Assembly (NCBI RefSeq): GCF_016793285.1
Contig: NZ_JAEUMO010000048.1
Coordinates: forward strand, 1 to 52,566
Length of the DNA stretch: 52,566 bases
Direction of reading: 5' to 3'
Origin: Phenylobacterium sp.
Lineage (GTDB): Bacteria > Pseudomonadota > Alphaproteobacteria > Caulobacterales > Caulobacteraceae
Made by a program: the position numbers and the translations under genes. Each line of letters starts with the position of its first letter. Positions within the stretch are counted from its first letter, which is position 1. Below the pieces are notes generated by a model that saw only the letters and a program-made list of their open reading frames with translations, had not been told where the DNA came from and searched no databases. Of this stretch, positions 32,164 through 52,566 are shown one piece after another.

Positions 32164-32240
32164 TGGCGCGCCCGGCAGGACTCGAACCTGCAACCGTCCG
32201 CTTAGAAGGCGGATGCTCTATCCGGTTGAGCTACGGGCGC
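32164..32240 (-). tRNA. tRNA-Arg (anticodon TCT)
   Basis: Complete cloverleaf on the minus strand. The acceptor stem is GCGCCCG / CGGGCGC, the D-arm has GCTC/GAGC, the anticodon arm TCCGC / GCGGA encloses loop CTTCTAA (anticodon TCT), and the T-arm GCAGG / CCTGC encloses TTCGAGT. The discriminator is G and CCA is encoded (32166-32164). It begins seven bases after the stop codon of the NDUFS4-like gene. Confidence 0.97.
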
Positions 32241-32896: not shown

Positions 32897-33745
32897 ATGA
32901 CCGCGCTCGCTCGAACGCCGGTCCTGGACGAGGACGATTCGAACCTCGTCCTCGATCCCCAGGACGTCTTCTCTGCGTTCGACTGGGTCGAAGCCCGTGG
33001 ACTGAGGCCCGAACTCACAATGCTGGATCCCTGGTACAACAAGGGCGTCGGCGGCGTGGTCGATGAGGCGGAGTACGACAGGTTCATCGCCGAACTGCTC
33101 GAGCGGGCCTGCAGAGTGTCGCCGCACGTCTATCTCTGGGGCTTTCCGGAGATCCTCGGTCCGTATGTGCGGTGCATTCCCGGGTCGCACAGACTCGTGG
33201 CCTGGCTCACCTGGTACTACAAGAACAATCCCTCGGTGATCCGGGGCTGGCGCTCGGCCCAGATGACCTGCCTGCACCTGGCCGAGCCCGATGCTCCGAT
33301 GTACCCGCAGCACTTCATCAACGCGGCTCAGAAGCAGCGGCTCGAAGACGGAACCCTTCGCTACATGCCCGGGCCTCCGAGCGTGATCGAAAGCCCGCTG
33401 ATCATCGGGTTCATCGGGAAGAAGGAGCAGACGGGACACCCGGCCCAGAAGCCGGTCGCCGTGTATGACAAGCTCATCCGCATGGTCACGGTCGAATCGG
33501 ACACGATCTTCGACCCGATGTGCGGATCGGGGACGACGGGCGCCGTCGCAAAGATCCGGGGCCGGCGCGCGATCATGAATGACGTGAATCCCGAGTATGC
33601 CGCGATCGCGCAGCGACGACTGGGCGAGGACTACACCGGGTGGGCGGAACGGCTGGACGCGGAGCTCAACAACCGCGAGACGGGCGCCCCGAAGGCGCGG
33701 CGGACCTCTCAGGACCTACCGCCTGACGATATCTCCGTCGGCTAG
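32897..33745 (+). CDS. Site-specific DNA methyltransferase (N4-cytosine/N6-adenine, beta-class order)
   Basis: 282 residues. Catalytic motif IV is DPWYN (44-48), near the N-terminus; the SAM-binding motif I FDPMCGSGTTG (205-215) and the preceding GHPAQKPVAVYDKLI (motif X, about 180-194) are near the C-terminus. This order is that of beta-class N4-C or N6-A methyltransferases; DPWY instead of DPPY fits a variant subgroup. It is convergent with an HNH nuclease and overlaps it by 30 bp, which suggests a restriction-modification pair. Recognition sequence unknown. The C-terminal tail (about 255-282) is not conserved-looking. Confidence 0.87.
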   Translation: MTALARTPVLDEDDSNLVLDPQDVFSAFDWVEARGLRPELTMLDPWYNKGVGGVVDEAEYDRFIAELLERACRVSPHVYLWGFPEILGPYVRCIPGSHRLVAWLTWYYKNNPSVIRGWRSAQMTCLHLAEPDAPMYPQHFINAAQKQRLEDGTLRYMPGPPSVIESPLIIGFIGKKEQTGHPAQKPVAVYDKLIRMVTVESDTIFDPMCGSGTTGAVAKIRGRRAIMNDVNPEYAAIAQRRLGEDYTGWAERLDAELNNRETGAPKARRTSQDLPPDDISVG

Positions 33746-34360
33746 CCGTCTATATCCAAAGTAGTCGAGGAGGAGCTGGAAGGCCGCCTCCTTGTCGCGA
33801 GCTCCGGCCGCCTGGACGATCGCCGTCACGTTCAGCTTTCCGGTGGCGTTGTCCCAGTAGTTCTTCTTCGTGACCTGGTGGCGCCCGCAGAGCGCCTGCC
33901 AGGCATCCGGGTCGTTCGGATCGCTGTTCGGATCGACGGAGTGCGGGCTCTTGTGGTCGGGCGTGAGTTTCACCCTGCCGCCACCGACGGGATCGACGTC
34001 GCCCGCCTGGAGGCCGCATGTCTCTCCCGCCTCGTTCCACTCGCACCGGTCGCCGGCACGCTCCAGGACTGTTCTCCAGGCCCCCGGCGTCGGCCTGACG
34101 CGCCTGGCGGCCGCCTCGCGACGCTCGGCATGCGGCATCATGTATTCCCCCGGACGGAGGTCTGCGGAGTCGCGCGCCGCCCAGATCGTGTAGCCCTCGT
34201 CCGTGCGCAGTTCGGAGAGGCGCTGATGCCAGTTCTCGGGCTCGACGCCTGTCGCCGGGTCCCGACTTGCCGCGATGATGTCCTGACGGGTGAGGACCTT
34301 GCCGATATTCGCCAGGAAGAGCGCCCTGATCCGATCCCGCACTCCCGAACCTCGGGCCAT
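33716..34360 (-). CDS. HNH-type nuclease, probable restriction endonuclease partner
   Basis: 214 residues. The N-terminal half (about 8-85) looks like a winged-helix DNA-binding region (LFLANIGKVLTRQDIIAAS, LSELRTDEGYTIW, ADLRPGEYMM). The C-terminal half is an HNH fold: C106 and C115, then PDH (D135-H136), a mid-loop N, then LCGRH (C158, H161) and N171. The paired cysteines suggest a structural zinc. This architecture is known among type II HNH restriction enzymes. ATG 34360 has GGAGG six bases upstream. Adjacent location to a methyltransferase supports the role; biochemical proof is absent. Confidence 0.75.
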   Translation of the reverse strand: MARGSGVRDRIRALFLANIGKVLTRQDIIAASRDPATGVEPENWHQRLSELRTDEGYTIWAARDSADLRPGEYMMPHAERREAAARRVRPTPGAWRTVLERAGDRCEWNEAGETCGLQAGDVDPVGGGRVKLTPDHKSPHSVDPNSDPNDPDAWQALCGRHQVTKKNYWDNATGKLNVTAIVQAAGARDKEAAFQLLLDYFGYRRLADGDIVRR

Positions 34361-34478
34361 CGGCGCCTCCACCTGGGCGCCTCGCGGTGATCGCGAGTCG
34401 CGCTCGGGATAGTAGCGCCCATCCAGCCATTCGGGCGGTAGCCTGAGTTTGCGGACCCGGCGCCGGCCGCACGCGAAA

Positions 34479-34533: not shown

Positions 34534-34610
34534 TGGTCGGGGCGGCAGGATTTGAACCTGCGACCCTCTGCTCCCAAAGCAGATGCGCTACCAGGCTGCG
34601 CTACGCCCCG
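34534..34610 (-). tRNA. tRNA-Pro (anticodon TGG)
   Basis: Cloverleaf on the minus strand. The acceptor is CGGGGCG / CGCCCCG, the D-arm GCGC..GCGC, the anticodon arm TCTGC / GCAGA with loop TTTGGGA (anticodon TGG), and the T-arm GCAGG / CCTGC with TTCAAAT. The discriminator is A, and CCA is encoded at 34536-34534. Confidence 0.97.
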
Positions 34611-36469: not shown

Positions 36470-36486
36470 CCACAACCTAGTTGTGG
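36470..36486. repeat. Perfect inverted repeat just upstream of the integrase
   Basis: CCACAAC-CTA-GTTGTGG, a 7-bp exact inverted repeat with a 3-base spacer, 23 bp before the integrase ATG. The size and symmetry fit a dimeric repressor operator or an integrase/att arm site. Confidence 0.55.
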
Positions 36487-36509
36487 GGAAGGACGTAGGA
36501 AATTTGACG

Positions 36510-37805
36510 ATGCCCAAGAAGGTCAGAGAGCTTGCGCCGCTGGAAGTCAGGGCGCTGACAAAGAGCCCAGGGATGCATGCGGTCGGCGGCGTGGCCGGCT
36601 TGCATCTGCTGGTGGGCAAGCTCCCCGAAGGCGAGCCGGATCGCGCCCCTGCGTCCTCGTGGGTGCTGAGGGTGATGGTAGGCGGCAAGCGACGTGACAT
36701 TGGCCTGGGCGGCTTCCCCGATGTGCCGCTGGCCGACGCTCGCCGCAGGGCGCGTGAAGACCGCGAGGCCATCGCCAACGGCCTGAACCCGGCCGCCGAG
36801 CGCAGGAAGGCCAAGGCGGCGCTGCTGGCCAGCGCGGGCCGGCTGCTGACCTTCAAGCAGGCCGCCGAGGATTATCTGGCCGCGCATGAGAAGGGTTGGC
36901 GGAACCCCAAGCACCGGGCCGCCTGGAGCCATACTCTGGAGACGTTCGCCTACCCGGTGCTCGGCAAGCTGGCCTGCGCGGACATTGAGACGACGCATGT
37001 GCTCTCGGTGCTGCGCCCCCTCTGGGGCGTCGGGGACGGCGCCCCCAAGCCTCGTGTCGAGACGGGCAAGCGGCTGCGCCAGCGCATCGAAGCGATCCTG
37101 GACAGCGCAAGAGCGTCCGGGGCGATCAAGTCGCCCTGGGAGAACCCGGCCCGCTGGTCCGGCCACCTGGACCAGTTGCTCGCCAAGCCGCGCAAGCTCG
37201 CTCCCATCGTCCATCGAAAGGCGCTCCCCTTCGACGCGGCGCCCGCCTTCATGGCCCGCCTGAGCGCCGTCGAGGGGATGGGCGCACGGGCGCTCGCGTT
37301 CGCCATCTACACCGCGGCCCGCAGCGGGGAAGTGCGCGGCGCAACCTGGGCAGAGATCGACCTGAAGGCCAAGGTGTGGACGGTGCCGGCGTCGCGCACG
37401 AAACAGGGCCGCGAGCACCGGGTCCCCTTGTCTGACGCGGCCATCGAACTGTTGGACAATGTACCTCGCCTTGCAGACAGCGAATTCGTCTTCCCGGCCG
37501 CCAGCGGCAAGCCGCTCAGCGACATGACGCTCTCCGCTGTCTGCAAGCGGATGGCGGTGCCGGCGGTGCCTCACGGCTTCCGCTCCACCTTCCGCGACTG
37601 GTGCGGCGAGCGCACAGCCTTTGCACGGGACGTTGCCGAGGCCGCTTTGGGCCACGCCGTAGGCAATGAGGTCGAGGCCGCCTATAGGCGCGGCGACGCC
37701 TTGGACAAGCGCCGCAAGCTCATGGAGGCTTGGGCGGCCTTCCTGTCGAAGCCCTTGGCGTCGAAGTCCGACAATGTCACGCCGATGCGCGGGGCGGCGG
37801 CGTGA
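36510..37805 (+). CDS. Tyrosine-type site-specific integrase, P4 type with DUF4102 N-terminus
   Basis: 431 residues. The DUF4102 arm-binding region (about 1-105: LHLLVGK, WVLRVMVGGKRRDIGLGGFP, LADARRRARE) is followed by a core-binding domain (about 112-210) and the catalytic domain. All catalytic residues are visible: R271 in AARSGEVRG, K298 in SRTKQGREHRVPL, H355 and R358 in HGFRSTFRDW, H382 in ALGHAVGN and Y392 in AYRR. It should integrate and, with an excisionase such as the AlpA-like protein, excise the element. The start is ATG 36510 with GGAA upstream; a GTG at 36483 is possible but lies in the inverted repeat. Confidence 0.93.
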   Translation: MPKKVRELAPLEVRALTKSPGMHAVGGVAGLHLLVGKLPEGEPDRAPASSWVLRVMVGGKRRDIGLGGFPDVPLADARRRAREDREAIANGLNPAAERRKAKAALLASAGRLLTFKQAAEDYLAAHEKGWRNPKHRAAWSHTLETFAYPVLGKLACADIETTHVLSVLRPLWGVGDGAPKPRVETGKRLRQRIEAILDSARASGAIKSPWENPARWSGHLDQLLAKPRKLAPIVHRKALPFDAAPAFMARLSAVEGMGARALAFAIYTAARSGEVRGATWAEIDLKAKVWTVPASRTKQGREHRVPLSDAAIELLDNVPRLADSEFVFPAASGKPLSDMTLSAVCKRMAVPAVPHGFRSTFRDWCGERTAFARDVAEAALGHAVGNEVEAAYRRGDALDKRRKLMEAWAAFLSKPLASKSDNVTPMRGAAA

Positions 37806-38802: not shown

Positions 38803-39261
38803 ATGAACGGCAACGACAAGCACACGGCCCCGCGGGGCCAGGGCCCCTACGAGGTCTATGGTGAGCCCCTCGACCTTGAAGCCGCCACCGCGGCCGGCCT
38901 CTGGGGCGCCCGCTTCGCCGCTGTCGCGATGCGCGCGGGCATCGAGATGGCCGCCAGCCTTCCCCTTCCCGCTCGGGAGGAGGCCGAAGCTCGGCGCATG
39001 GCGGGCTCGCTCACGATCAACCGCGACGCACTCCCGCAGCCGTTCGCGACATTCCCGACAGTGGCCGAGCATGCTTACCGGACGGCCGAGGCGCTGGCGC
39101 GAAAAGCCCGCCAGACGCCCGCGCCGTCGCCTGACCTGCTGCGTGAGGCAGACGATGCCGTGCAGCGGGCCGAGAACCTGGGCCGTCTGACCGCCCTCAT
39201 GGCGCGCGTGACCTTCCTGTCCGTGCGCGCCCAGCGAGACCTCAGAAAGACGAGCCGATGA
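38803..39261 (+). CDS. Hypothetical protein upstream of the primase/helicase
   Basis: 152 residues, mostly alpha-helical and rich in A, E and R (AAGLWGARFAAVAMRAGIEM, AEHAYRTAEALARKARQ, LMARVTFLSVRAQRDL). No known domain. The start lies 12 bp after the AlpA-like stop, and the end overlaps the start of the next gene by 4 bp (ATGA), so it belongs to the replication operon. It may be an accessory replication factor; no direct evidence. Confidence 0.6.
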   Translation: MNGNDKHTAPRGQGPYEVYGEPLDLEAATAAGLWGARFAAVAMRAGIEMAASLPLPAREEAEARRMAGSLTINRDALPQPFATFPTVAEHAYRTAEALARKARQTPAPSPDLLREADDAVQRAENLGRLTALMARVTFLSVRAQRDLRKTSR

Positions 39262-41390
39262 GCGCGCCGTTAGAAGACTCGACCCCGCCGGCGCCGGATC
39301 GCGCCCTGATGCGCCAGCATCTCGCCCTGATCGCGGCCGACGAGGAGCATGGGCTGGTCGAGATCGCCTGGACGGATGCGGACGCCAAGGCCCAGCTCCG
39401 CCACGCCCGGTTGTTTCACGTCTCCGAACTGGACGCTGCGGCGGACTTCGCCGCGGAGCGCAACGCCACGCCCGGCGTCAACGTCTATGTCGGCGCGGCC
39501 TTGCGGCGCGAGGACGCGAACCGTGGCCGTCGCGCCAAGGCGTCCGATGTGATGGGAACGCGCGTGCTCTGGTTCGACGCGGATCACGACGCGAAGGCGA
39601 CAGTCGACAAGGCGATGTCGGGCAGCCCTGCACCTAATGTGCTGGTTAGGACTGGCGCTGTCCCAAGCCTGAGAGTGCATGGCTACTGGCAGCTCCCCGA
39701 GCTGCTCACGGATCATGCGGCGATCACGGGGCAGTTGAAGGCCTTGGTCGCCCACTTGGGCACAGACCCGGCTGTCACCGACCCGCCACGCGTTCTTCGG
39801 ATGGCGGGCAGCGTGACGTGGCCCAAGAAGCCCGGAAGGGTCCCGGAAGTGGTGGGCTATCGGGCGACGACGGCGACGCCCTCAGCGACCTCCCTGGAGT
39901 CGCTTAGAACCCTCTATCCACCCAGCATCGCGGTCGGCAGCGCGGACCCAAGGCGAGAGGCGGCCCCCGCTGCGCCGATCCGTCCGCCCGTGATCGTGAC
40001 GCCGAAGCTGCTGGCCGAACTGCGCGACGCGCTTCGATACATCGAAACGCATGACTACCACACGTGGGAACGCATCGGCGAAGCCCTCAAGACCCTGGGC
40101 GAGGCTGGTTGGGACCTCTGGCACGAGTGGTCGGCCACCTCGGAAGCCTACGAACCCGATGAGGCAGAGAGGAAATGGCAGAGCTTCAAGGCGGAGCGTA
40201 CTGGATACGCCGCCATCTTCGCCGAAGCGCAGCGCCGGGGCTGGCGAAACCCAATGTCGCGACAGGCTCAGATCGAAGCCGGCTCCGACGGCCGGCCCGC
40301 CGTCGCGCCGCTGCGCGCGTCTGACCTCCTGAAGAACCCTCCCCCGTCGCGCCAGTGGATGGTCCGCGACCTGATCCCCGCGAGCCAGGTCACGGAGCTG
40401 CGGGGCGACGGTGGAGGCGGCAAGAGCACGCTCGCCCTCCAGCTCTGCGTCAGCGTCGTGGCCGAAGCGCCATGGCTCGGCATGGCCATCGAGCACGGCG
40501 GCCCCGCCTTCTATCTGGCCAGCGAGGATGACACCGACGAGCTGCACCGACGCCTCAGCGCCATCGCCGGACAGGCCGGCGTGGACCGCACGGCGCTGAA
40601 CGACCTCCACGTCTGGCCGCTGGCGACGGAAGACCCCGCCCTTGCAGCCCCATCGGGACAAGGCATTGGGCAGACGCAACGATGGGCCGAGTTGGTCGAG
40701 CACATCGAGCGCATCCGGCCCGCGCTGGTGGTGCTCGACAGCCGCGCTGACGTGTTCGCGGGCGAAGAGATCAACCGCCAGCAGGTGCGCGCGTTCATTG
40801 GCTGGCTTCGCGAGCTGGCGGTGCGGACAGGCGTTGCCGTGGTGGTGCTCGCGCACCCCTCGCAGTCGGGCAAGTCCGACGGCACGGGCAACAGCGGCTC
40901 GACGCATTGGGGAAACGCCGTCCGCTCCGCCCTCTACCTCAGCGTCGTGAAGGGCCACGACGGCGAGGCCGACACCGGAAAGCGGCAGCTCGCAGTCGTG
41001 AAGTCCAACTATGGACCCGGCGGCATCAGCCTGCGGCTGAGCTGGTCGGCCGGCGCCTTCGTCAACGAGCACGGCGGCGCGGTCCCGCTGAGCGTTGACG
41101 AGGAGCGTCTGCGAGTCGACCGGCTGTTCCTGTCGCTGCTGGACAAGTGCGAGGCCCAGGGCCGCATCGTGAGCGACCGTAGTGGCCCCAACTACGCGCC
41201 GGCCGCCTTCGCGAGGATGCCGGCCGCCGCGGGTGTCACCGCGCCGGGCTTCAAGGTCGCCATGGAGCGGCTGTTCCACGCCAATCGCATCCGTGTGGTT
41301 CGCACCGGCAGACCCTCGAATGGCCGGTGGAAGCTGGAGCGGGTCACCGCAGCGACGGATTTCAACATCGCGCAGCCGGCGGCCGCATGA
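39258..41390 (+). CDS. Primase/RepA-helicase-like AAA ATPase
   Basis: 710 residues. The N-terminal 220 or so resemble a RepB/prim-pol-type primase domain (GTRVLWFDADHDAKA, PRVLRMAGSVTWPKKPG). A PriCT-2-like helical region lies at about 257-325 (ALRYIETHDYHTWERIGEAL, EWSATSEAYEPDEAERKW). A RepA/KaiC-type AAA_25 ATPase follows, with Walker A GDGGGGKSTLA (383-393) and Walker B LVVLDSRADVF near 490, plus GVAVVVLAHPSQSGKSDG. The C-terminal end looks like a winged helix. It is most likely the replication initiator/helicase of the element. Homology at the N-terminus is weak, and primase activity is only suspected. Confidence 0.8.
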   Translation: MSAPLEDSTPPAPDRALMRQHLALIAADEEHGLVEIAWTDADAKAQLRHARLFHVSELDAAADFAAERNATPGVNVYVGAALRREDANRGRRAKASDVMGTRVLWFDADHDAKATVDKAMSGSPAPNVLVRTGAVPSLRVHGYWQLPELLTDHAAITGQLKALVAHLGTDPAVTDPPRVLRMAGSVTWPKKPGRVPEVVGYRATTATPSATSLESLRTLYPPSIAVGSADPRREAAPAAPIRPPVIVTPKLLAELRDALRYIETHDYHTWERIGEALKTLGEAGWDLWHEWSATSEAYEPDEAERKWQSFKAERTGYAAIFAEAQRRGWRNPMSRQAQIEAGSDGRPAVAPLRASDLLKNPPPSRQWMVRDLIPASQVTELRGDGGGGKSTLALQLCVSVVAEAPWLGMAIEHGGPAFYLASEDDTDELHRRLSAIAGQAGVDRTALNDLHVWPLATEDPALAAPSGQGIGQTQRWAELVEHIERIRPALVVLDSRADVFAGEEINRQQVRAFIGWLRELAVRTGVAVVVLAHPSQSGKSDGTGNSGSTHWGNAVRSALYLSVVKGHDGEADTGKRQLAVVKSNYGPGGISLRLSWSAGAFVNEHGGAVPLSVDEERLRVDRLFLSLLDKCEAQGRIVSDRSGPNYAPAAFARMPAAAGVTAPGFKVAMERLFHANRIRVVRTGRPSNGRWKLERVTAATDFNIAQPAAA

Positions 41391-43642: not shown

Positions 43643-43841
43643 AGACCGTACACGATTCTCGACGTTGGCTCAGCGATATGCGGCGTGTCGGGAGTGACTG
43701 GAGGGAGAGGCGGCCCACTGCGGCCAAGCAAGAAGAGCCGTCCTCCCCTCCGATTTCACGCTCACGCGCCCGGCTTCTCTGCCCTGCGTTTCCATTGGCA
43801 GGCAAGAGCGTCGAGTGCCAAGGCCGAGAGGCAAGAAGGCC

Positions 43842-45257
43842 ATGGTAAGAGCTTCACCGTCACCGGCGGCCAACCCGGCTGTGCGAGACGAAATCCTCAT
43901 CACGCACGCCAACCCGGAAGACAACGCCGTCGCGCGCTGGCTGGCGGCGCGGCTGACGACAGCGGGCTATCGCGTCTGGGTCGATGTGCAGGAGCTTCGC
44001 GGCGGCGACGACTTCTGGAACGTGATCGAGGACAAGCTCCGCCACCACGTGGTCAAGCAGATCGCGCTGGTGTCGCGTCATGTGCGCAAGCGCGGCGTCC
44101 TGAAAGAACTGGCCCTGGGTGACGGGATCGGGCGCCAGCTCGGCGACGACCAGTTCATCATCCCGATCCGCGTGGACGACGTTCCCTACCTGGAGTTCCC
44201 GACGGAGCTGCTTCGCCTCAACGCGCTGGAGGCATTCCCGAATTGGGCCGGCGCGCTGGCGCCGCTCCTCAAGACCCTGGAGGACGCCGGCGTGCCCCGG
44301 CGCACCGGACCCGACACAGAGTTCCTCGCGTCCCTGGTTGAAGCGCAGCAGCGTGGCAGGCTGACGGTGCTGGAGCGACCTGAGACCCTCCTGACCAACT
44401 GGTTTCAGATCACCGAGATGCCCGAGCTGCTGACCTTCTACGGCTCGGCCGGGCTGTCGACCCAACTGGAGAACTGGCTGGCCAACTCCCAGAAGCCGCA
44501 CCTGAAGTACCTCGGCCTGGCCGGCACGTTCACCGACGTCGGCACCTTCCAGGCCGGTGATGTAGCTCCTCCGAAGCTGGATGGCCGGTTCTGGCTCAGG
44601 CCCGGGGATATCCTCACGAACGGCGAGGTCGCCCCCTTCCCCAATGGAGCCGAGGGCCGGCGTCAGATGGTCAACCTGCTTCGACAGCATTGGGATTTGG
44701 CCATGCACCGGCGCGGCCTGCGCAGGTTTGAGTACGCTAGCGGGGAGATCGGCTGGTTCTTCCCCGATGGCCTCGTGGACGGGCGCGTGAAGCGCACGCT
44801 GGCCAGCGGCAAGAAGGTCGACCGTGCCGTGTCCGGAAAGTTCAAGGACAAGCGCTGGCATCTGGCGCTGATCGGTCGTCCACGCCTGTGGCCCGCGCCC
44901 ATGTTCCGCGTGCATGCGAACATGGTGCTCAGCCTCGACGGCTCAACGCCACTGCCGGGCAAGGAAACTCAGGCGATCCGGCGCCGGCTCACGCGGAGTT
45001 GGTGGAACGACAAGTGGCGCGACCTGCTGCTGGCCGGCCTGGACTGGCTCGCGGAGGGGGAGCCAACTTTCGACCTCGCGGTCGGCCGCGAACGTCTCAA
45101 GCTCAGCACCGCCCCGCTGGAGGTGCCGTTCCCTGTTTCCTATGAGGCGGAGGAGCGGCGGGAGAGCGAGGAAGCCGCTGATGGCGAGATCCTGCTGGGC
45201 GAGGAGCTGGAGACCGACGAAGGCATCGAGCACGAACCGGAGCCCGAAGGCGCATGA
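43842..45257 (+). CDS. SPARTA TIR-APAZ protein (NAD-degrading effector subunit)
   Basis: 471 residues from ATG 43842 (GTG 43815 is an alternative). The N-terminal TIR domain (about 16-150) has ILITHANPEDNAVARWLAAR (the ITHANPED box), GYRVWVDVQELRGGDDFW, IALVSRHV, and RGVLKELALG with E89 as the probable NADase glutamate. FIIPIRVDDVPYLEFP leads into the APAZ region (about 160-450), whose SPARTA-type blocks include DKRWHLALIGRPRLWPAPMF and SWWNDKWRDLLLAGLDWL. In known SPARTA systems this subunit forms a heterodimer with short Argonaute, and invader DNA recognised by a guide triggers NAD+ depletion. It overlaps the Argonaute gene by 4 bp. The acidic C-terminal tail is typical. Confidence 0.92.
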   Translation: MVRASPSPAANPAVRDEILITHANPEDNAVARWLAARLTTAGYRVWVDVQELRGGDDFWNVIEDKLRHHVVKQIALVSRHVRKRGVLKELALGDGIGRQLGDDQFIIPIRVDDVPYLEFPTELLRLNALEAFPNWAGALAPLLKTLEDAGVPRRTGPDTEFLASLVEAQQRGRLTVLERPETLLTNWFQITEMPELLTFYGSAGLSTQLENWLANSQKPHLKYLGLAGTFTDVGTFQAGDVAPPKLDGRFWLRPGDILTNGEVAPFPNGAEGRRQMVNLLRQHWDLAMHRRGLRRFEYASGEIGWFFPDGLVDGRVKRTLASGKKVDRAVSGKFKDKRWHLALIGRPRLWPAPMFRVHANMVLSLDGSTPLPGKETQAIRRRLTRSWWNDKWRDLLLAGLDWLAEGEPTFDLAVGRERLKLSTAPLEVPFPVSYEAEERRESEEAADGEILLGEELETDEGIEHEPEPEGA

Positions 45258-46783
45258 TCCAGAAGGCGATCTACCTGCCGGAACCGACGCTTGCGTTCGG
45301 TCACGGGCAATGTCTCGAAGCGCCCAAGGATGGGCTGTTCCTCTTCGGGCCGTTCGAGGATGCCGGCGGCCGGCACGAGGTGCGGCTCGGCTTCATCGGC
45401 ACCCAAGCCGGCGCGGGTCTCTTGCGAGCATGGCTCGGCAAGCTGCGGGGCTGGATCGGGCCTTCCCTCAACCGGCACGGTGCCGAGACCACCTGGGCGC
45501 CGCCCTGGCCGGGCTTCCAGGCGGTGTTCGGACTCGCTCTGCCGGATCGCCCGATGACGGAAGTCACCCTGGACGGGGTCGAGATCGACTCCGCGATCAA
45601 GCGGTCGAACAGGTCGGACGCGGTGCGCACGACCGTGAAGCTCTACGCCGACGCCATCCGACGCCATCGGACGACAGAAGAGCGGCAACCCGACGTGTGG
45701 GTGGCGGTCATTCCTGACGTGGTCTTCCGGTACGGCCGGCCGGCGGTCGCGGCGCCGCCCAGGGCGGAGCGCACCGCGTCAACGATCATCTCCTCGCGCG
45801 CAGCGAAGGCCTTCTACGAGCGCGGCGATCTGTTTCCCGAGACGATGGCCGACGCCGAGGTCTACCTGTTTGCCAACAACTTCCACCACCAGCTCAAGGC
45901 CGAACTGCTCGGGGACAAGGTGGCCTTGCAGTTGATCCTGGAGCGCACCCTGCAAGATCGCGCGCTCGCCAGCCGTCCTGCCAGCCGGGGCCTTCAGGAC
46001 GAAGCGACCGTCGCCTGGAACTTCGCGACCACCCTCTACTTCAAGATGGACGCCAAGCCGTGGGCGCTCGCCGATGTTCGGCCGGGCGTGTGCTACGTCG
46101 GCCTCGTCTTCAAGAACGACGAAACGCCGGCCGCAAAGGGCGAGGCATGTTGCGCGGCCCAGATGTTCCTCAGCTCGGGCGATGGCCTGGTGTTCCGCGG
46201 CGCCCTTGGCCCTTGGTACTCGGAAGAGAACCGCGAGTACCACCTGTCGTCCAAGGCGGCCGGCGAACTCATGGCCTCGGTCATTGACGGCTACAAAGAC
46301 AAGCACGGGCGAGCCCCGTCTCAGCTCTTCATCCACGGTCGGCATCGCTTCAGCCGCCAGGAGTGGGAGGGCTTCAAGTCCGCTGTGGCGCCCGAGACCA
46401 GCTTGGTAGGTGTGCGCATCCGGCCGGGTGATGAGATGCGGCTATTCCGGCCGGCGGCCTCGACGCCCGTGCTGCGCGGCGCCGCTGTTGCGCTCGATGA
46501 CCGCCAAGCCTTGCTGTGGACGCGCGGCTACATCCCAAGACTGGCGACCTATCCGGGCTTTGAAACGCCGAAGCCATTGAGCGTGGAAGTCACTCACGGA
46601 GACGCCGACCTGGAGCAGGTGCTGGGCGACGTGCTCGCATTGACGAAGGTGAACTACAACGCGTGCGACTTCGCGAGCGGCATTCCGGTGACGCTGCGGT
46701 TCGCGGATCGGGTGGGCGAAATCCTCATGGCCTCACCGCGAACGGCAGAGGCTCCGCCCCTGCCCTTCCGCTACTACATCTGA
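45254..46783 (+). CDS. Short prokaryotic Argonaute (MID-PIWI) of SPARTA type
   Basis: 509 residues, the usual length of a short pAgo. The MID part contains NNFHHQLKAELLGDKVALQL, with H211-H212 and K215 at the position expected for guide 5'-end binding. The PIWI part (about 276-509) has YVGLVFKNDE, SSGDGLVFRGALGPW, ELFIHGRHRF-like QLFIHGRHRFSRQEWEGF, the C-terminal LTKVNYNACDF, IPVTLRFADRVGEILM and ending FRYYI. The PIWI catalytic tetrad (DEDX) is absent, as in all short pAgos, so it senses but does not cut. Its ATG overlaps the TIR-APAZ stop. It is convergent with the DUF499 gene, 13 bp apart. Confidence 0.93.
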   Translation: MIQKAIYLPEPTLAFGHGQCLEAPKDGLFLFGPFEDAGGRHEVRLGFIGTQAGAGLLRAWLGKLRGWIGPSLNRHGAETTWAPPWPGFQAVFGLALPDRPMTEVTLDGVEIDSAIKRSNRSDAVRTTVKLYADAIRRHRTTEERQPDVWVAVIPDVVFRYGRPAVAAPPRAERTASTIISSRAAKAFYERGDLFPETMADAEVYLFANNFHHQLKAELLGDKVALQLILERTLQDRALASRPASRGLQDEATVAWNFATTLYFKMDAKPWALADVRPGVCYVGLVFKNDETPAAKGEACCAAQMFLSSGDGLVFRGALGPWYSEENREYHLSSKAAGELMASVIDGYKDKHGRAPSQLFIHGRHRFSRQEWEGFKSAVAPETSLVGVRIRPGDEMRLFRPAASTPVLRGAAVALDDRQALLWTRGYIPRLATYPGFETPKPLSVEVTHGDADLEQVLGDVLALTKVNYNACDFASGIPVTLRFADRVGEILMASPRTAEAPPLPFRYYI

Positions 46784-46796
46784 CGGGCTTCGCGCC

Positions 46797-49700
46797 CTAA
46801 TCTTCAGCGAAACCGGTGCCTTCCGGGCTGAACTTCAGCGTCTTGGCATTGTCCCGGACGATGGCGGCATCTTCCACGTCGAAGCCGTTGGGCGCTGTCG
46901 CCTCGATTTCCAGGCGCAGGCTCAGCTTGACGCCGTCTGTGCGCAGCAACTCGGCGATCACGTTTTCGAGGATCGGTTGGAGGTCGCGCACCGGGCGCTC
47001 GGCGCTCAGCTCGACGCTGCCGTAGAACCGCCGAAGCGCCCGCGCCACGCCCGGCTTCTCCTCGACCGCGCCTCCGCCGCTTTGCGGCGTTGCAGGGGTG
47101 GTCGGCCCTGTCGCCCCGGTACTCGATCCGCTGCCCTTGAGCTGGGCTTCGGCGACTTCCTTCCGCACCAGCACTGCGTCGGCGTCGAACGAGGGGTTCA
47201 CGACCTTGCCGAAGACGAGGCCGCGGTAGGTCCCGTCGGCGGCGATGCCTTCCGCGTAGGCGAAGTCGGTGAAGACGTCGCGCAGCAGCTCCGTCAGCGC
47301 CTCGCCGAGTACGATATCATCCCGCACCCGCTCAAATCGGACGTACTGGACAAACCAATCGCGAACGGTGGCCAGCGGCACGTGGTCATCTCCGACCGGC
47401 CACGCCTCCTTCAGCCTGTCGGAGAGCGTCTGCCGACCCAGCTTCACCAGGACGCTCTGATCGGTGCTGACCCTATCCCAGACGGCCTGGGCGACCGTCT
47501 TGGAGCCCGGGTTGCGGATCGTCACCTTGTCCAGGGAGAACGGCTCGCCTTCGATCCGGGGAGGCGTCGGCACGATGATGTGCGACCACGCCCGGCGCAC
47601 CGAAGACTCCAGTGCGGCCTGACTGTTGGTGGTCTCCTTGTCGGCCTCCTCACGCTGACTGTCCTTCAGGTCCAGCGAGCGGTCGTCGCGGATCGAGCGC
47701 CAGGCCAACAGCAGCTTCGCGGCCTTGCGCGCCTCTCCTAGGAGGGGCCCGTCCGGAGCCACGAAGATCAGCGTGTTCCGCGCCTGCCGCAGACGGCCGC
47801 CGCCTCGGCGCTTCAGCGCATCTTCCGCCGTCACCATCGCGAGCGGCGGCTCGACCCGGCTATCGAACGTGAAGTTTGGATGCAGCACGATCAGACCGAC
47901 GGCCGTGCTCTCCTCCGCCTCTTCGGGGTTCAGGGAGCAGGTGTGAACCTTGACGAAGCTCCCCCGTGCCCGCTCGTCACGCTTCAGCAGCGAGACGATC
48001 TCGTCGTCCGCCTCGGCGTCGGACTTCTCCTGCGCCTTGGCTTCGGCGAGCTTGCGCAGGGTCGGCTGGGAGCCGAACCAATAGGCGTTGTTCTCGGCGC
48101 GCAGGTGCCCCGACCTGTTCGCCAGCTCTGACAGCGCGTCACCGAAGACCGAGACGTTCTCCCCCGGCCGGGCGCAGGCGAGGCGGACGTCGGCGCCGCT
48201 CATCCCGCCGCGGGCCTCGCCGAGCGGCGCGGTGCCCAGGAACACGCCGCGGGCAGCCCGGGTCGCGATCCGGTCGTTGCCGTAGCGCTGCTTCTCACCG
48301 TCGAGACGGAACGGCTGGGCGCGGTCGCTCTCGACCTCGCCGTCCACGATGGCCGCCCAGGCGGTTCCCTCCAGGGGCTCGATGACAGACCCCCGCACCA
48401 GCGGGTCGCCCAGAGGGATGGAGCCCATCTGGATCAGGGGGTCGTTGGAGCCGCTGATCCAGATGCGGCGCGCGGCTTCGGCGATGAACTTGAGCACGCC
48501 GCGGGTCCGCTGGAAGCGGTCGAGCCCGCCCCACTCCTGCGCGAGCTTGTCGAACAGCATCGGGTGGACCGGGTAGGCCTCCCGCATCAGCTCGCCGTAG
48601 GCGGCTTCGTCCACGCCGGCCGGGAAGTCCTTCTTGTTGTCCCGGTAGTAGCGCCGATAGGCCTCGATGGTCCGGTCGCGTTCCTTCACCCCGGCCTCGT
48701 CCAACTCCTGGAACAGGCGTCGCCGGACGATGGCGTAGGTTTCGGTGCCCTGTGCGGCCTGCCAGGACGATTGCAGGCGGCCGAACAGCTTCTCCAGCCG
48801 CGACAGCGTCTCCTGCCCGCGGTCGCCGCCGGCCTCGTCTTCCGACTCCGGCAGCGAGCCCACGATGAGCGCCTGGGGCACGCGCGCCGCAGCCTCGGTG
48901 AGCGACTGGAAGAACGCGAGGTTCGCGTCGTAGCGCTCCCCGTCGAGCTGCTTCACATAGGCCACGATCTCATCGAGCAGGATGAGGGCCGGCCCGCCCG
49001 CGGCCCGCAGCACCTTCTCCAGCGCCTCGCCGCCGGGGTTGGTGCCCGCCGCCTCCGCGCCAGCGATCAGGGAGAGCCCTTCCTCGCCCGCGAGCCGGTA
49101 GGCCAGATAGCCCCAGATCGTCCGCACCGGCTTGGAGCCGGCGTAGATCAGGGGCACGTCAGGCCCCTTGTCGCTGCCGGAGAACGCGACGGCCTTTGCC
49201 CCCTTCAGACCGGCGGCGTTCCCGATGATCTCGCCCACGCCCTGAAGCGCTGTAGGATCGGTGGCGCGCGCCACGTGCAGCAGCGCCAGCATCGTGTGCG
49301 TCTTGCCGCCGCCGAAGTTCGTCTGCAGGCCGATCACCGAAGGGCCCACGCCTGACGCTAGCCGCGACGAGCCGTTGCGCAGGACCAGCTCCAACCCGCC
49401 TGTCATGTGGGTGGAGCGGAAGAACTCTGCGGGGTCGCCGTACGGTCCAGTGACTTCACCGCGGTCCACGACCGCGAGGTTGGCCGCGAAGTGATCCAGC
49501 GTCAGGCGCCCGGCCGTGATGTCTTCTCTCGGAGGAGCTGTCAGACGCCATGGCTCCAGGGCGCCGACCTTCTGCCCCTCGTTGAAGCCCAAGCCGAGCT
49601 GCTTGGAGACATCGGTGGGCGCTGCGGCACCGGACTTGAGCGTGAGGACGGGCCGCGTTTCCTTGGGCGAGCCGGCTGCGGCTGGCGGAGACGGCGTTGC

Positions 49701-50141
49701 GGTCGGCACCCCCTTTCCGGCCATCTTGCCGATCATGCCGTCAACAAGCGCACGAGCATCCTTCGCGTTATTCGCCTTGATCCCTTCCAGGAGTTCGGCG
49801 GCCCCAAGGAGGGCGCGGAGGGTGACGTCATCCGGAACGTCTGCCCCGCCCGCGGGCGCGTGTGAGTAGGCATTTCGACCTGCGTTGGTCGCGGTCGCGG
49901 CATCGCGGATGTTGTGCCCCAGGCCGCGCGAGAAGACCTCACGCCACTCGTTCTGGAAGAGACGCAGATAGGCCTGCACATCCAGGTTGCCGCCGCGAAC
50001 CGCCCCGTCCGGGAAGTTGGCGTGCTGCCGCCAGTTGGCGCCGTAGTTCGCCTCCAGGGCTCGCTCGACAAAGGTCGGGAGGCTGCCCCCCACCACGTCC
50101 AGCATCTTGCCCAGCCGGGCCTTATTGGTCAGGACGTCCAC
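46797..50141 (-). CDS. DUF499 AAA ATPase with N-terminal Swt1-like HEPN motif
   Basis: 1114 residues from GTG 50141 (GAGGG six bases upstream). N-terminal helical domain (about 15-135) with R89-N90-A91-Y92-S93-H94, the RNxxxH motif of HEPN ribonucleases, in the Swt1-type arrangement (FVERALEANYGANW, then YLRLFQNEWREVF). A proline-rich linker (about 140-170) leads to the ATPase: Walker A NFGGGKTH (275-282, K280) and Walker B ALILLDEIVAYV (385-396). The C-terminal half is the DUF499 region, ending in RLEIEATAPNGFDVED. It starts 11 bp after the DUF1156 stop, so it belongs to that operon. Role as a defence effector is inference from the family pairing. Confidence 0.85.
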   Translation of the reverse strand: MDVLTNKARLGKMLDVVGGSLPTFVERALEANYGANWRQHANFPDGAVRGGNLDVQAYLRLFQNEWREVFSRGLGHNIRDAATATNAGRNAYSHAPAGGADVPDDVTLRALLGAAELLEGIKANNAKDARALVDGMIGKMAGKGVPTATPSPPAAAGSPKETRPVLTLKSGAAAPTDVSKQLGLGFNEGQKVGALEPWRLTAPPREDITAGRLTLDHFAANLAVVDRGEVTGPYGDPAEFFRSTHMTGGLELVLRNGSSRLASGVGPSVIGLQTNFGGGKTHTMLALLHVARATDPTALQGVGEIIGNAAGLKGAKAVAFSGSDKGPDVPLIYAGSKPVRTIWGYLAYRLAGEEGLSLIAGAEAAGTNPGGEALEKVLRAAGGPALILLDEIVAYVKQLDGERYDANLAFFQSLTEAAARVPQALIVGSLPESEDEAGGDRGQETLSRLEKLFGRLQSSWQAAQGTETYAIVRRRLFQELDEAGVKERDRTIEAYRRYYRDNKKDFPAGVDEAAYGELMREAYPVHPMLFDKLAQEWGGLDRFQRTRGVLKFIAEAARRIWISGSNDPLIQMGSIPLGDPLVRGSVIEPLEGTAWAAIVDGEVESDRAQPFRLDGEKQRYGNDRIATRAARGVFLGTAPLGEARGGMSGADVRLACARPGENVSVFGDALSELANRSGHLRAENNAYWFGSQPTLRKLAEAKAQEKSDAEADDEIVSLLKRDERARGSFVKVHTCSLNPEEAEESTAVGLIVLHPNFTFDSRVEPPLAMVTAEDALKRRGGGRLRQARNTLIFVAPDGPLLGEARKAAKLLLAWRSIRDDRSLDLKDSQREEADKETTNSQAALESSVRRAWSHIIVPTPPRIEGEPFSLDKVTIRNPGSKTVAQAVWDRVSTDQSVLVKLGRQTLSDRLKEAWPVGDDHVPLATVRDWFVQYVRFERVRDDIVLGEALTELLRDVFTDFAYAEGIAADGTYRGLVFGKVVNPSFDADAVLVRKEVAEAQLKGSGSSTGATGPTTPATPQSGGGAVEEKPGVARALRRFYGSVELSAERPVRDLQPILENVIAELLRTDGVKLSLRLEIEATAPNGFDVEDAAIVRDNAKTLKFSPEGTGFAED

Positions 50142-50152
50142 CCATTCCCTCG

Positions 50153-52566
50153 TCAGAAGAGTTGTCCCGGAGTTGCCCGATTGAGGGCAGCGATCTCGGC
50201 GATATCGGTGCGGTCCGCCGCTGCTTCGATGGCATCCCACGCTTCGGAGAGCTGCCCCCAGCCGCGGGCCTCTTCGGCCATGCGACGGTCCTCGGCGATG
50301 GCGAAGAGGCGGCCCGTCAACCAATAGACGGCACCCGTCATCTCCCGTCCCTCAGCGAGCAGTGCGCCAGCGGACTCGATACCCCCGCCCTCATTTAAGG
50401 CGCGGTTCATGGCCTGGGCGAGTTCCCAAGCGGTGAGCGTCCGATCCCGGCTCGGTCGCCAGTTCTCCGGCATCTCGCCCCTGCGGAGCAGGCGCGCATC
50501 GCCGCGGTCGGTTATGAGAATGCCTGCCTCCCGAAGACCTCGTTCGGTGAGGTCATAGGACTGCGCCAACTGGATGGCCTTACCCGAGTCAAAGCTGTTC
50601 CATCCGTAGGAGGTGAACCAATCCAGCGCAAACCGGGTCGCCGCATCCAAGTCGCCCGAGTCCGCGTGATCAATTTCCCCCCGGACCTGGTTGATAAGGG
50701 TGATTGCGCGGCTCACGGACATGGTGCTGTCATCGGCCTCTCGCACCCCTGAGAAGCGCGAGAAGACCGCCATGCCCGGGCCCAGGGCTGCCTGCGGAAT
50801 ATCCACCGGGTGCAAACCCGCAGCGCGCATGCGCTCGATTGCCTTTGGCAGCTCCCGTCGCAGTTCGGCCAACAATTCCCGCCGCCCAATGGTCGGGGCA
50901 TCGGAAGCGCGTGTGCGACAGACCAGGACGATGGAAGACGCGAGTGCGTTCGCGCCCTGGGCCCTCATCCGCTCAGCGCTTTCGCTGCGCACTGGCCACG
51001 TACCATCGACCACGAGACCCGCATCGACGACGGCTTGCAGGAATGAAGCCCAGCCGGCGGAAGTCACTCCATCCTGCGACATCTCTGATTGCTTGAAGGC
51101 ATAGTAGATGGCGAGAGGGGCGTCGCTGGATGACGCGTTCCGCATCGCGGTGAGAGCTTGACTCATCCCAAACATGAACTCGCGTTCGGCGCGATCCTTA
51201 GGCGAGAGCCGGTCCCATCCTACCAGTAGCGGATGATCTTCACGGCCGACCCGGCGCGTCATCTCTGCACGATCTGGCGACCTATGAGGAGTGGCGACAA
51301 GTTCACCGGTCTTCGGGGTCTGTAGTCGGCGAAACAACTCTGGCCACACAGCCGAAATGGAACGTCGGAGCCAGACGTAGAAATAGTCAGATAGGTCTGC
51401 GTAACCAATATTATCGTAATAGGGAGGGTCAGTGCTTATTAATACTGGGCGAACAGGGTAGGAATTTGCTGGCGCGTCAAGCTGTAGTATGGTTCCAGCG
51501 CCCATTGCAGGAACTTTCTCCAGTGCATTCGCAACTACGTCTATGCATGTCTCTGATCCAGCGCTCGATTTGGCAAAGTAGTTCGCCTCGCAATAGTCCC
51601 AGACCATAGGAAGCGCCTGGCGTGCCAGCGCTGAGCGAATTGCATTGTCCTTCGGGAGCCATGTCGCACTCGTGCTCCCGTATTCAGCCATTCGGTCAAC
51701 CGAGAACGCCAAGTAGGTCGCTATGGCATCGGCGTAACTCTGTGGCCCATTCCCACCCTCAGCCAACGCCGTGGTGTCGCCACTCAACCCGCGCGCATCC
51801 CATGCAAGCCCTGCGTCCGCGAGTACCTCTGCCCGCAACTCTTCCACCAGGTCCGCAAATGTCGTCAGGCTGACGAGCTGCCGGTCCGTGAACAGATCGC
51901 CGTATGTTGAAAGCCCGTACCCCGGCACCCGAAAGCCAAGCGCCTTCGGGTCGAGCCGAGCCTCCGGCTTCCATGACGCGCAGGCCGAGTGAGCCGTGTG
52001 TTCTTGCGAACTGGTGGGAGACAGATAGATCCTCCCCCGATCGCCCTCCGCGACCACGGCCATTAGGCGATCTCTTAGTTCGCCGGACTTACCCGCCGCT
52101 CGCACCGCGGCCATAGTGATCGGCGCTCCAGTGAGCGCGCAAACGAAACCCGATGTCCCCTTGGTGCCGTCCCTTGCAGTCGCAAGTTCTTCGTTCGTTG
52201 CGCCGCCCTGCCGGACCTCGAACCGCCAGCCGTCGGTAGCCGCATTATCACGCACGACCCGAACAAACGCTTCCTTGCCCGCCTTCGAAGACAGGATGAA
52301 GGATGATGCCAGCGGGACCATTGCACCCCGGGCCGCAGGGTCGGGCGAACGGACTGTTCGACACCAAAGCCATGCGGTAACGGGAGTGGTTCGACCTCCA
52401 GGCAAGGGCGCATCTGGATACAGATGCCCGATGCGCTGTTGCGCTCTCTCGCGCATGCGGCGGCCGTAGTATCGGACGTCGCTCGCAAGCCCTTCAGCTC
52501 CCCGCCAAGGAGGAGCTAGAGGCGACCGAGAAAGGCCAGGCTGCACGGGCGCGTACCCGGCGAACC
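50153..52566 (-). CDS. DUF1156 adenine-specific DNA methyltransferase (5' end outside window)
   Basis: At least 803 residues; the frame is open to the right edge, so the conserved N-terminus is missing. Family markers are GLASDVRYYGRRMRERAQQRIGHLYPD near the cut end (in two halves around residue 25-50 of the visible part), TDPPYYDNIGYADLSDYFYVWL (motif IV, around 51,410-51,435), and SQALTAMRNASSSDAPLAIYYAFK. The short segment where the Zn-ribbon cysteines are usual reads TVRSPDPAARGA, without the cysteines. It should methylate adenine in DNA and partners the DUF499 ATPase. Base composition drops in GC around 51,400-51,600. Confidence 0.87.
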   Translation of the reverse strand, partial: FAGYAPVQPGLSRSPLAPPWRGAEGLASDVRYYGRRMRERAQQRIGHLYPDAPLPGGRTTPVTAWLWCRTVRSPDPAARGAMVPLASSFILSSKAGKEAFVRVVRDNAATDGWRFEVRQGGATNEELATARDGTKGTSGFVCALTGAPITMAAVRAAGKSGELRDRLMAVVAEGDRGRIYLSPTSSQEHTAHSACASWKPEARLDPKALGFRVPGYGLSTYGDLFTDRQLVSLTTFADLVEELRAEVLADAGLAWDARGLSGDTTALAEGGNGPQSYADAIATYLAFSVDRMAEYGSTSATWLPKDNAIRSALARQALPMVWDYCEANYFAKSSAGSETCIDVVANALEKVPAMGAGTILQLDAPANSYPVRPVLISTDPPYYDNIGYADLSDYFYVWLRRSISAVWPELFRRLQTPKTGELVATPHRSPDRAEMTRRVGREDHPLLVGWDRLSPKDRAEREFMFGMSQALTAMRNASSSDAPLAIYYAFKQSEMSQDGVTSAGWASFLQAVVDAGLVVDGTWPVRSESAERMRAQGANALASSIVLVCRTRASDAPTIGRRELLAELRRELPKAIERMRAAGLHPVDIPQAALGPGMAVFSRFSGVREADDSTMSVSRAITLINQVRGEIDHADSGDLDAATRFALDWFTSYGWNSFDSGKAIQLAQSYDLTERGLREAGILITDRGDARLLRRGEMPENWRPSRDRTLTAWELAQAMNRALNEGGGIESAGALLAEGREMTGAVYWLTGRLFAIAEDRRMAEEARGWGQLSEAWDAIEAAADRTDIAEIAALNRATPGQLF

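Follow-up and report, generated by a model that had tools for sequence, protein, structure and literature searches.

A putative HEPN-fused Hma (Type-1 BREX-related) gene pair at the end of a Phenylobacterium contig

The window analyzed here is the whole of contig C127, 52,566 bp from a genome of 271 contigs, and its right edge is therefore an end of the assembly. At this edge lie two minus-strand genes, hmaB upstream of hmaC, and the reading frame of hmaB stays open up to the contig end. Because the contig ends inside this gene, the methyltransferase is present without its first ∼200 residues. The features of the pair are listed below, with the basis for each in parentheses.

46797..50141, minus strand: hmaC, a 1114-aa HEPN-bearing DUF499 (BrxC-like) AAA+ ATPase with a GTG start at 50141 (PADLOC, Pfam, and BrxC model match)
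49779..50108, minus strand: Swt1-like HEPN domain, residues 12-121 of HmaC (Pfam HEPN_Swt1, E 6.5e-12; all-helical model)
49860..49877, minus strand: RNAYSH (RNxxxH), residues 89-94, predicted RNase active site (conservation in aligned ATPases)
48222..49559, minus strand: AAA+/ORC-like ATPase core, residues 195-640, with limits set for the region comparison (alignments; Foldseek matches to BrxC, then ORC2)
49296..49322, minus strand: Walker A region TNFGGGKTH, residues 274-282, including K280 (K280 in 89/89)
48969..48986, minus strand: Walker B LILLDE, residues 386-391 (D390 and E391 in 89/89)
50142..50152, minus strand: 11-bp gap between hmaB and hmaC (ORF coordinates)
50153..52566, minus strand: hmaB, a DNA amino-methyltransferase with 803 codons present and its N-terminal ∼200 residues cut off (PADLOC HmaB; alignment A2)
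51419..51430, minus strand: DPPY motif IV of hmaB, of the N6-adenine/N4-cytosine type (sequence; alignment A2)

Both genes gave strong matches to profiles of the Hma system. The ATPase matches HmaC (PADLOC PDLC00662) over residues 194-1105 with an E value of 2e-205 and Pfam DUF499 over residues 333-639 (E 1.5e-18). The methyltransferase matches HmaB (PADLOC PDLC00660) in two stretches with an E value of 1.3e-238, the best of which aligns residues 19-432 with positions 211-627 of the 967-position profile. Taken together, the locus is almost certainly the hmaB-hmaC end of an Hma operon, now called Type-1 BREX-related (BR), in its HEPN-fused variant. The first-pass annotation had proposed a defense system made of a DNA methyltransferase and a HEPN-bearing DUF499 ATPase, encoded by minus-strand genes 11 bp apart. 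Its main claim is borne out by the two profile matches and by a HEPN_Swt1 match described below, the ORF coordinates agree on the spacing, and the profile search of the operon genes that it had called for is what identified HmaB and HmaC. The residue numbers that it gave (R89, H94, and K280) are correct when counted from the GTG at 50141, as seen in the alignment with relatives.

The same annotation had called the system little-described, which did not survive a look at the literature. In 2013, Anantharaman et al. reported the fusion of Abi2/SWT1-type HEPN and DUF499 AAA+ modules in restriction-modification-like operons that also encode a helicase (PMC3710099). Hma (helicase, methylase, ATPase) was named in 2021 by Payne et al. 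from 1,638 instances in 26 phyla (PMC8565338); the phage tests in the accessible part of that paper concern systems other than Hma. In 2026, Hma was reclassified as a Type-1 BR system found in 2446 taxa, 1370 of which carry the HEPN domain, and a mechanism with the RNase as backup was proposed (PMC12839542). That paper also refers to Liu et al. 2024, according to which the helicase of one system of this type gives phage defense. The operon of COG1743, DUF499, and a SWI2/SNF2-nuclease is noted in PMC7641849, defense genes embedded between Hma genes are mentioned in PMC12111858, and the BR proposal is restated in a BrxC study (PMC13326643). Hma and PADLOC are further mentioned in several other papers, for example PMC10855318, PMC12988326, PMC12629846, and PMC10273834. 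The HEPN-DUF499 architecture and the system as a whole are thus already described, and what the window contributes is a further member, from a divergent clade. In the literature searched, which covered few subscription journals, no study was found that put the HEPN of HmaC to an experimental test, a weak negative, and the same search returned no mechanistic test of an Hma ATPase.

The conservation of the ATPase was examined in an alignment of 89 proteins, consisting of the window, two relatives, six plasmid loci, and 80 genome loci that were the best-scoring of at least 576 confirmed; since these 80 were chosen by score, they are biased to HEPN-bearing proteins. HEPN_Swt1 matches HmaC with 46.2 bits, above its cut-off of 27.5 (E 6.5e-12). 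R89 and H94 of the Rx4-6H catalytic motif occur in all 87 aligned ATPases with letters at these positions, the number being 87 rather than 89 owing to gaps at the motif in L068, where the frame is broken, and in L086, whose contig starts inside the gene. N90 is present in 86 of the 87, the exception being L082 (RHKWAH), and the Walker residues K280, D390, and E391 are kept in 89/89, the window being one of the 89. This degree of conservation argues that the motif is not there by chance. The reading of RNxxxH (89-94) as a HEPN signature in front of an AAA module with good Walker A/B motifs is accordingly upheld at the level of sequence, with HEPN_Swt1 spanning residues 12-121 and K280 and D390-E391 at the expected positions.

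The HEPN domain diverges most among the three regions compared, with a mean identity to the window of 28%; the C-terminal part averages 30% and the AAA core 41%. An alignment of 73 HEPN sequences (A3, which holds 72 of 78 listed HEPN references and the window) has only five invariant columns, D54, F70, R79, R89, and H94 in HmaC numbering. HEPN_Swt1 matches all 73 of these sequences; HEPN_RiboL-PSP matches six and DUF4145, which is treated as HEPN in PMC3710099, matches three. A further alignment, A4, consists of 39 of 75 full-length references and the window. The AlphaFold model of residues 4-140 is all helical with a mean pLDDT of 96.1 and has the motif at the tip of a long helix. When the PDB was searched with this model by Foldseek, no chain reached E ≤ 0.001 and the best 50 of 100 matches included no HEPN; structure comparison thus speaks neither for nor against the fold, and its assignment relies on sequence profiles. 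A sequence search of the PDB with the HEPN profile gave three matches (best E 0.38), and the match to HepS, which aligned over RNxxxH, is too weak to count (E 1.8).

These data also bear on whether the domain cuts RNA. In eukaryotic Swt1, the HEPN domain is described as inactive (PMC3710099), and the HEPN of HmaC could by analogy bind RNA or mediate dimerization without cutting. The Foldseek result, with no solved HEPN in the best 50 of 100 matches, would fit such a role. However, according to the same source the motif is lost in eukaryotic Swt1, whereas R and H are both present in 87/87 of the proteins here, and the bacterial DUF499-fused family is listed there as active. We regard a non-cutting HEPN as improbable, and within the explanation that we favor the domain is likely to be catalytically active.

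The full-length model of HmaC has a mean pLDDT of 84.8. When it was compared to the PDB with Foldseek, the top four matches were all to chains in Acinetobacter BREX structures, namely 9zll (a complex of BrxC, BrxB, and PglZ) and 9zdx (a dimer of BrxC), with E values of 1.6e-5 to 3e-4, and the next was an archaeal ORC2 (E 8.7e-3). Judged from their length, the matched chains of 9zll appear to be BrxC. The matches of the predicted fold independently confirm the published link of DUF499 to BrxC and ORC/Cdc6. Searching PDB sequences with a profile of the ATPase gave four matches, the best to FtsH at E 0.049. In a tree of the AAA core, the window belongs to a 13-member clade (support 100/100) among the 89 and has L020 as its sister (100/100). 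The same 13 group together in the HEPN tree (support 86), where the window and L020 pair at 99. As the two trees agree on this clade, the HEPN domain and the ATPase appear to have moved together. The linker between HEPN and AAA in the window (49560-49766, HmaC residues 126-194) is 70 residues long, as compared to a median of 40 among the 88 other proteins and to 90 in L020; in the window, residues 144-177 within the linker are modeled with low confidence and are probably disordered.

The identity of the putative HmaB rests on its profile match, on an alignment with five full-length relatives, and on a DUF1156 domain in the relative L021 (residues 13-82, E 3.4e-32). According to the alignment, the window lacks an N-terminal stretch of ∼200 residues that holds the DUF1156 region and the DPFxGGG SAM motif I, and it contains DPPYYDN. 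Pfam returned no match on the piece of methyltransferase in the window. Calling it a DUF1156 methyltransferase was therefore right for the family, although the domain itself lies beyond the contig end and outside the window.

The relatives carry a third core gene. In the plasmid loci L014, L015, and L016, the annotated genes run from the helicase through other genes to the DUF1156 methyltransferase and the DUF499 ATPase. Three other plasmid loci vary: L017 has its helicase on the opposite strand; the ATPase of L013 has no annotated methyltransferase beside it; and in L018, a sacsin-like gene precedes the methyltransferase and no helicase is annotated within the stretch examined. Of the 80 genome loci, 71 have the methyltransferase upstream of the ATPase and on its strand, two have it elsewhere, and in seven it was not found. 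A helicase scoring above 100 bits with a profile built from three helicase genes lies upstream in 42 and downstream in one; 37 had no match, of which only five had more than 6.5 kb of sequence upstream of the ATPase and the rest less. Two helicases from the clade of the window match HmaA nearly end to end (1570 and 1606 bits). A complete operon of this clade, in the order hmaA-x-hmaB-hmaC, is that of Aureimonas ureilytica (L021:1670-12282). In all 27 helicases examined, SNF2, Helicase_C, and NOV_C were matched and the PD-(D/E)XK nuclease residues D, E, V, and K (D..EVK) are kept, and R89 and H94 are kept in all 27 adjoining ATPases. The helicase alignment, A5, holds 26 of these 27 near-full-length proteins (L057, near-identical to L055, was left out) and L077.

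Several relatives have other arrangements. Upstream of hmaB, L018:1352-5575, L084:1811-6160, and L098:569-4882 have a sacsin-like gene of ∼1400-1450 aa, whose match to the sacsin domain is weak and near the family cut-off (E 4e-8 to 1e-7); in L084 and L098, the C-terminal end of a helicase precedes it. The first of these ORFs is annotated as "ATPase" and was considered as a helicase, a reading that was rejected in favor of sacsin-like, as it was for the similar ORFs of L084 and L098. In L029:4692-8156, the C-terminal part of a single open frame matches hmaB (profile 591-925); perhaps a deletion has fused hmaB with an embedded gene, or the assembly is wrong here. A weak N-terminal helicase match in the same frame was due to a sacsin-like seed and disappeared with the corrected profile. 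Two members of the clade have HEC-03B matches between hmaB and hmaC (L026:5832-7205, E 1.1e-176; L030:7029-8438, E 1.1e-135). The operons of L061, with the helicase downstream of hmaC, and of L060, with the methyltransferase downstream on the opposite strand, are rearranged.

Within our favored explanation, hmaA, encoding a Snf2 helicase with a C-terminal PD-(D/E)XK nuclease, very likely lies just to the right of the contig end. The expectation of further components on this side is supported by the helicase found upstream in 42/80 relatives. Searches of the rest of the assembly did not recover them. The best HmaA profile match in the assembly has 30 bits, at the level of non-specific helicases, and since the profile also gave matches in 14/14 control genomes, weak helicase matches of this kind mean nothing. 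A search with the helicase of a relative gave no match, the N-terminus of HmaB was not found, and the last 367 bases of the contig occur in the assembly only at their own site. Both protein searches were run without a positive control in this genome, so the absence of hmaA and of the HmaB N-terminus is not proven; that neither was found nonetheless weighs against the favored explanation, and an intact operon at this site stays putative. The locus could then be a decayed remnant that has lost hmaA, for which the non-specific HmaA scores and the lack of any match to the relative's helicase would speak. Against this, hmaC is open over 1114 codons with intact motifs, the piece of hmaB is open to the contig end, and with the contig breaking off within hmaB, an adjoining hmaA would be missing from the sequence in any case. 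We consider decay improbable.

The third gene also weighs against a two-part system, in which methylation would separate self from foreign DNA and the ATPase-RNase alone would respond. The tight coupling of hmaB and hmaC fits such a system, whereas in relatives the pair stands beside a helicase-nuclease (upstream in 42/80), which leaves this reading with very little probability. The candidate of a new two-gene system was rejected on the same ground. The pairing of a modification enzyme with a probable RNase, from which an attack on RNA had been suggested, is supported, and the attack on RNA is a prediction; what that proposal omitted is the third core gene, the Snf2 helicase with its PD-(D/E)XK nuclease, which in relatives is expected to be the effector that destroys DNA.

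Compared to known systems, the window shares with Hma the strong HmaB and HmaC matches and, in its relatives, an upstream HmaA. It differs in that it has no hmaA and in that its match to the PADLOC HmaC profile starts at residue 194, past the HEPN domain. The Hma methylase is given as m5C in PMC8565338, whereas the DPPY motif of the window points to amino-methylation, and PMC12839542 gives N6. With the HEPN-fused Type-1 BR variant, the window has in common an ATPase with DUF499, an N-terminal HEPN, and a BrxC-like fold, a DUF1156-type methyltransferase, and a Snf2 helicase-nuclease, the last seen in its relatives. The differences are that the window ATPase belongs to the divergent 13-member clade and that its own linker is long. 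PMC12839542 describes a C-terminal RRM/ferredoxin-like domain; residues 1035-1114 of the HmaC model form two helices with no assigned strands at a local pLDDT of about 85. The Ava_2192 type of PMC3710099 has the same fusion of an Abi2/Swt1 HEPN to a DUF499 AAA+ module, and its restriction-modification-like operons also encode a fusion of SNF2 helicase and DUF3883; from its description in the accessible part of that paper, sequence divergence is the only difference found from the window ATPase. BREX shares the BrxC fold, which accounts for the four best PDB matches, but pglZ and brx genes are absent from the 15 ORFs scanned between 30.7 and 52.6 kb.

HmaC is patchily carried. Counting the genome of the window, it was found in 8/149 relatives at E 1e-20 and in 14/385 genomes of the class at E 1e-60. 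The class sample was searched with an HmaC profile without HEPN and is free of HEPN bias; a HEPN match is present in 8/14 of its HmaC genomes, with RN...H kept in 8/8, and was not found in the other 6/14, which indicates that the HEPN domain is not essential to the system. The share of 8/14 agrees with the 1370/2446 of PMC12839542. HmaC is also present in 110 of 72,556 plasmid records, and in none of 50,697 phage records (tblastn, E 1e-10). In viral contigs, a pattern search, which detects close relatives only, gave five stretches, none of which was confirmed. This patchy carriage fits a mobile defense gene.

The surroundings of the pair point in the same direction. Over the last 20 kb of the window, GC drops from about 0.70 to 0.64-0.68 and the third-position GC of ORFs, mostly about 0.93, falls to about 0.84. 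This stretch has, in order, an integrase, a PriCT-2/AAA_25 protein, an HTH regulator, TIR-APAZ with a short Argonaute, hmaC, and hmaB, three of which are located as follows.

36483-37805, plus strand: tyrosine-type integrase (profile scan)
39258-41390, plus strand: PriCT-2/AAA_25 primase-like protein (profile scan)
43815-46783, plus strand: TIR-APAZ gene overlapping a short prokaryotic Argonaute (PADLOC, E 2.2e-126 for TIR-APAZ and E 2.1e-193 for Argonaute)

The TIR-APAZ/Argonaute pair, which we take to be SPARTA-like, is convergent with hmaC across a 13-bp gap. The lower-GC stretch looks like an integrated element that carries the Argonaute pair and Hma, and the setting of hmaC-hmaB looks like an accessory defense island. 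At 32897-34372, an N6_N4 methyltransferase (plus strand) and a type II restriction enzyme (minus strand, PDLC03503, E 1.2e-85) converge, flanked by tRNA-Arg (32164-32240) and tRNA-Pro (34534-34610).

As a working explanation, we favor a HEPN-fused Hma system with self marking, DNA destruction by HmaA, and RNA cutting by HEPN as a second step, which as a whole we hold to be somewhat probable. The computation shows which genes these are, how the operon is arranged in relatives, that the motifs are intact and R89 and H94 strictly conserved, and that the ATPase has a BrxC-like fold; self marking, assembly on foreign DNA, gating, and a suicide role we infer largely from published proposals. HmaB would methylate adenine in host sites and so mark self, and HmaC, as a BrxC/ORC-like ATPase, would assemble on unmarked foreign DNA. 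There it would recruit HmaA, which would translocate on the foreign DNA and destroy it. The HEPN domain of HmaC would be a latent RNase restrained by the ATPase; foreign DNA that persists would lead to its release, and RNA would be cut and the cell stopped.

The order of the two effectors could also be reversed. In that case, HmaC and HmaA would sense foreign DNA, the HEPN RNase would cut RNA immediately as the main effector, the response would be abortive from the start, and the helicase-nuclease would be mainly a sensor. Conservation of R89 and H94 in 87/87 despite the fast divergence of the domain argues for regular use, and HEPN is found in 8/14 HmaC genomes of the class. The 6/14 without a HEPN match speak against this reading, as do the nuclease residues of HmaA, kept in 27/27 helicases partnered with HEPN, and the phage defense by the helicase component of one system (Liu et al. 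2024, as cited in PMC12839542). That nuclease sites are kept in both HmaA (27/27) and HEPN (87/87) argues that both are in use. We consider HEPN as main effector unlikely, and within the favored explanation we lean slightly toward HEPN as the second rather than the first effector.

We tentatively suggest, as a possibility short of an even chance, that a BrxC-like ATPase senses how DNA is methylated and thereby gates a HEPN RNase on its own polypeptide chain, so that a single restriction-modification-like system would kill through both DNA (nuclease of HmaA) and RNA (HEPN of HmaC). A methylation-gated HEPN has already been predicted in print, and its demonstration would be new. In the divergent clade with the long HEPN-AAA linker of the window, the wiring could differ from that of other members. 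Hma is widespread (26 phyla in PMC8565338 and 2446 taxa in PMC12839542), hence the relevance of the role that its HEPN domain may play.
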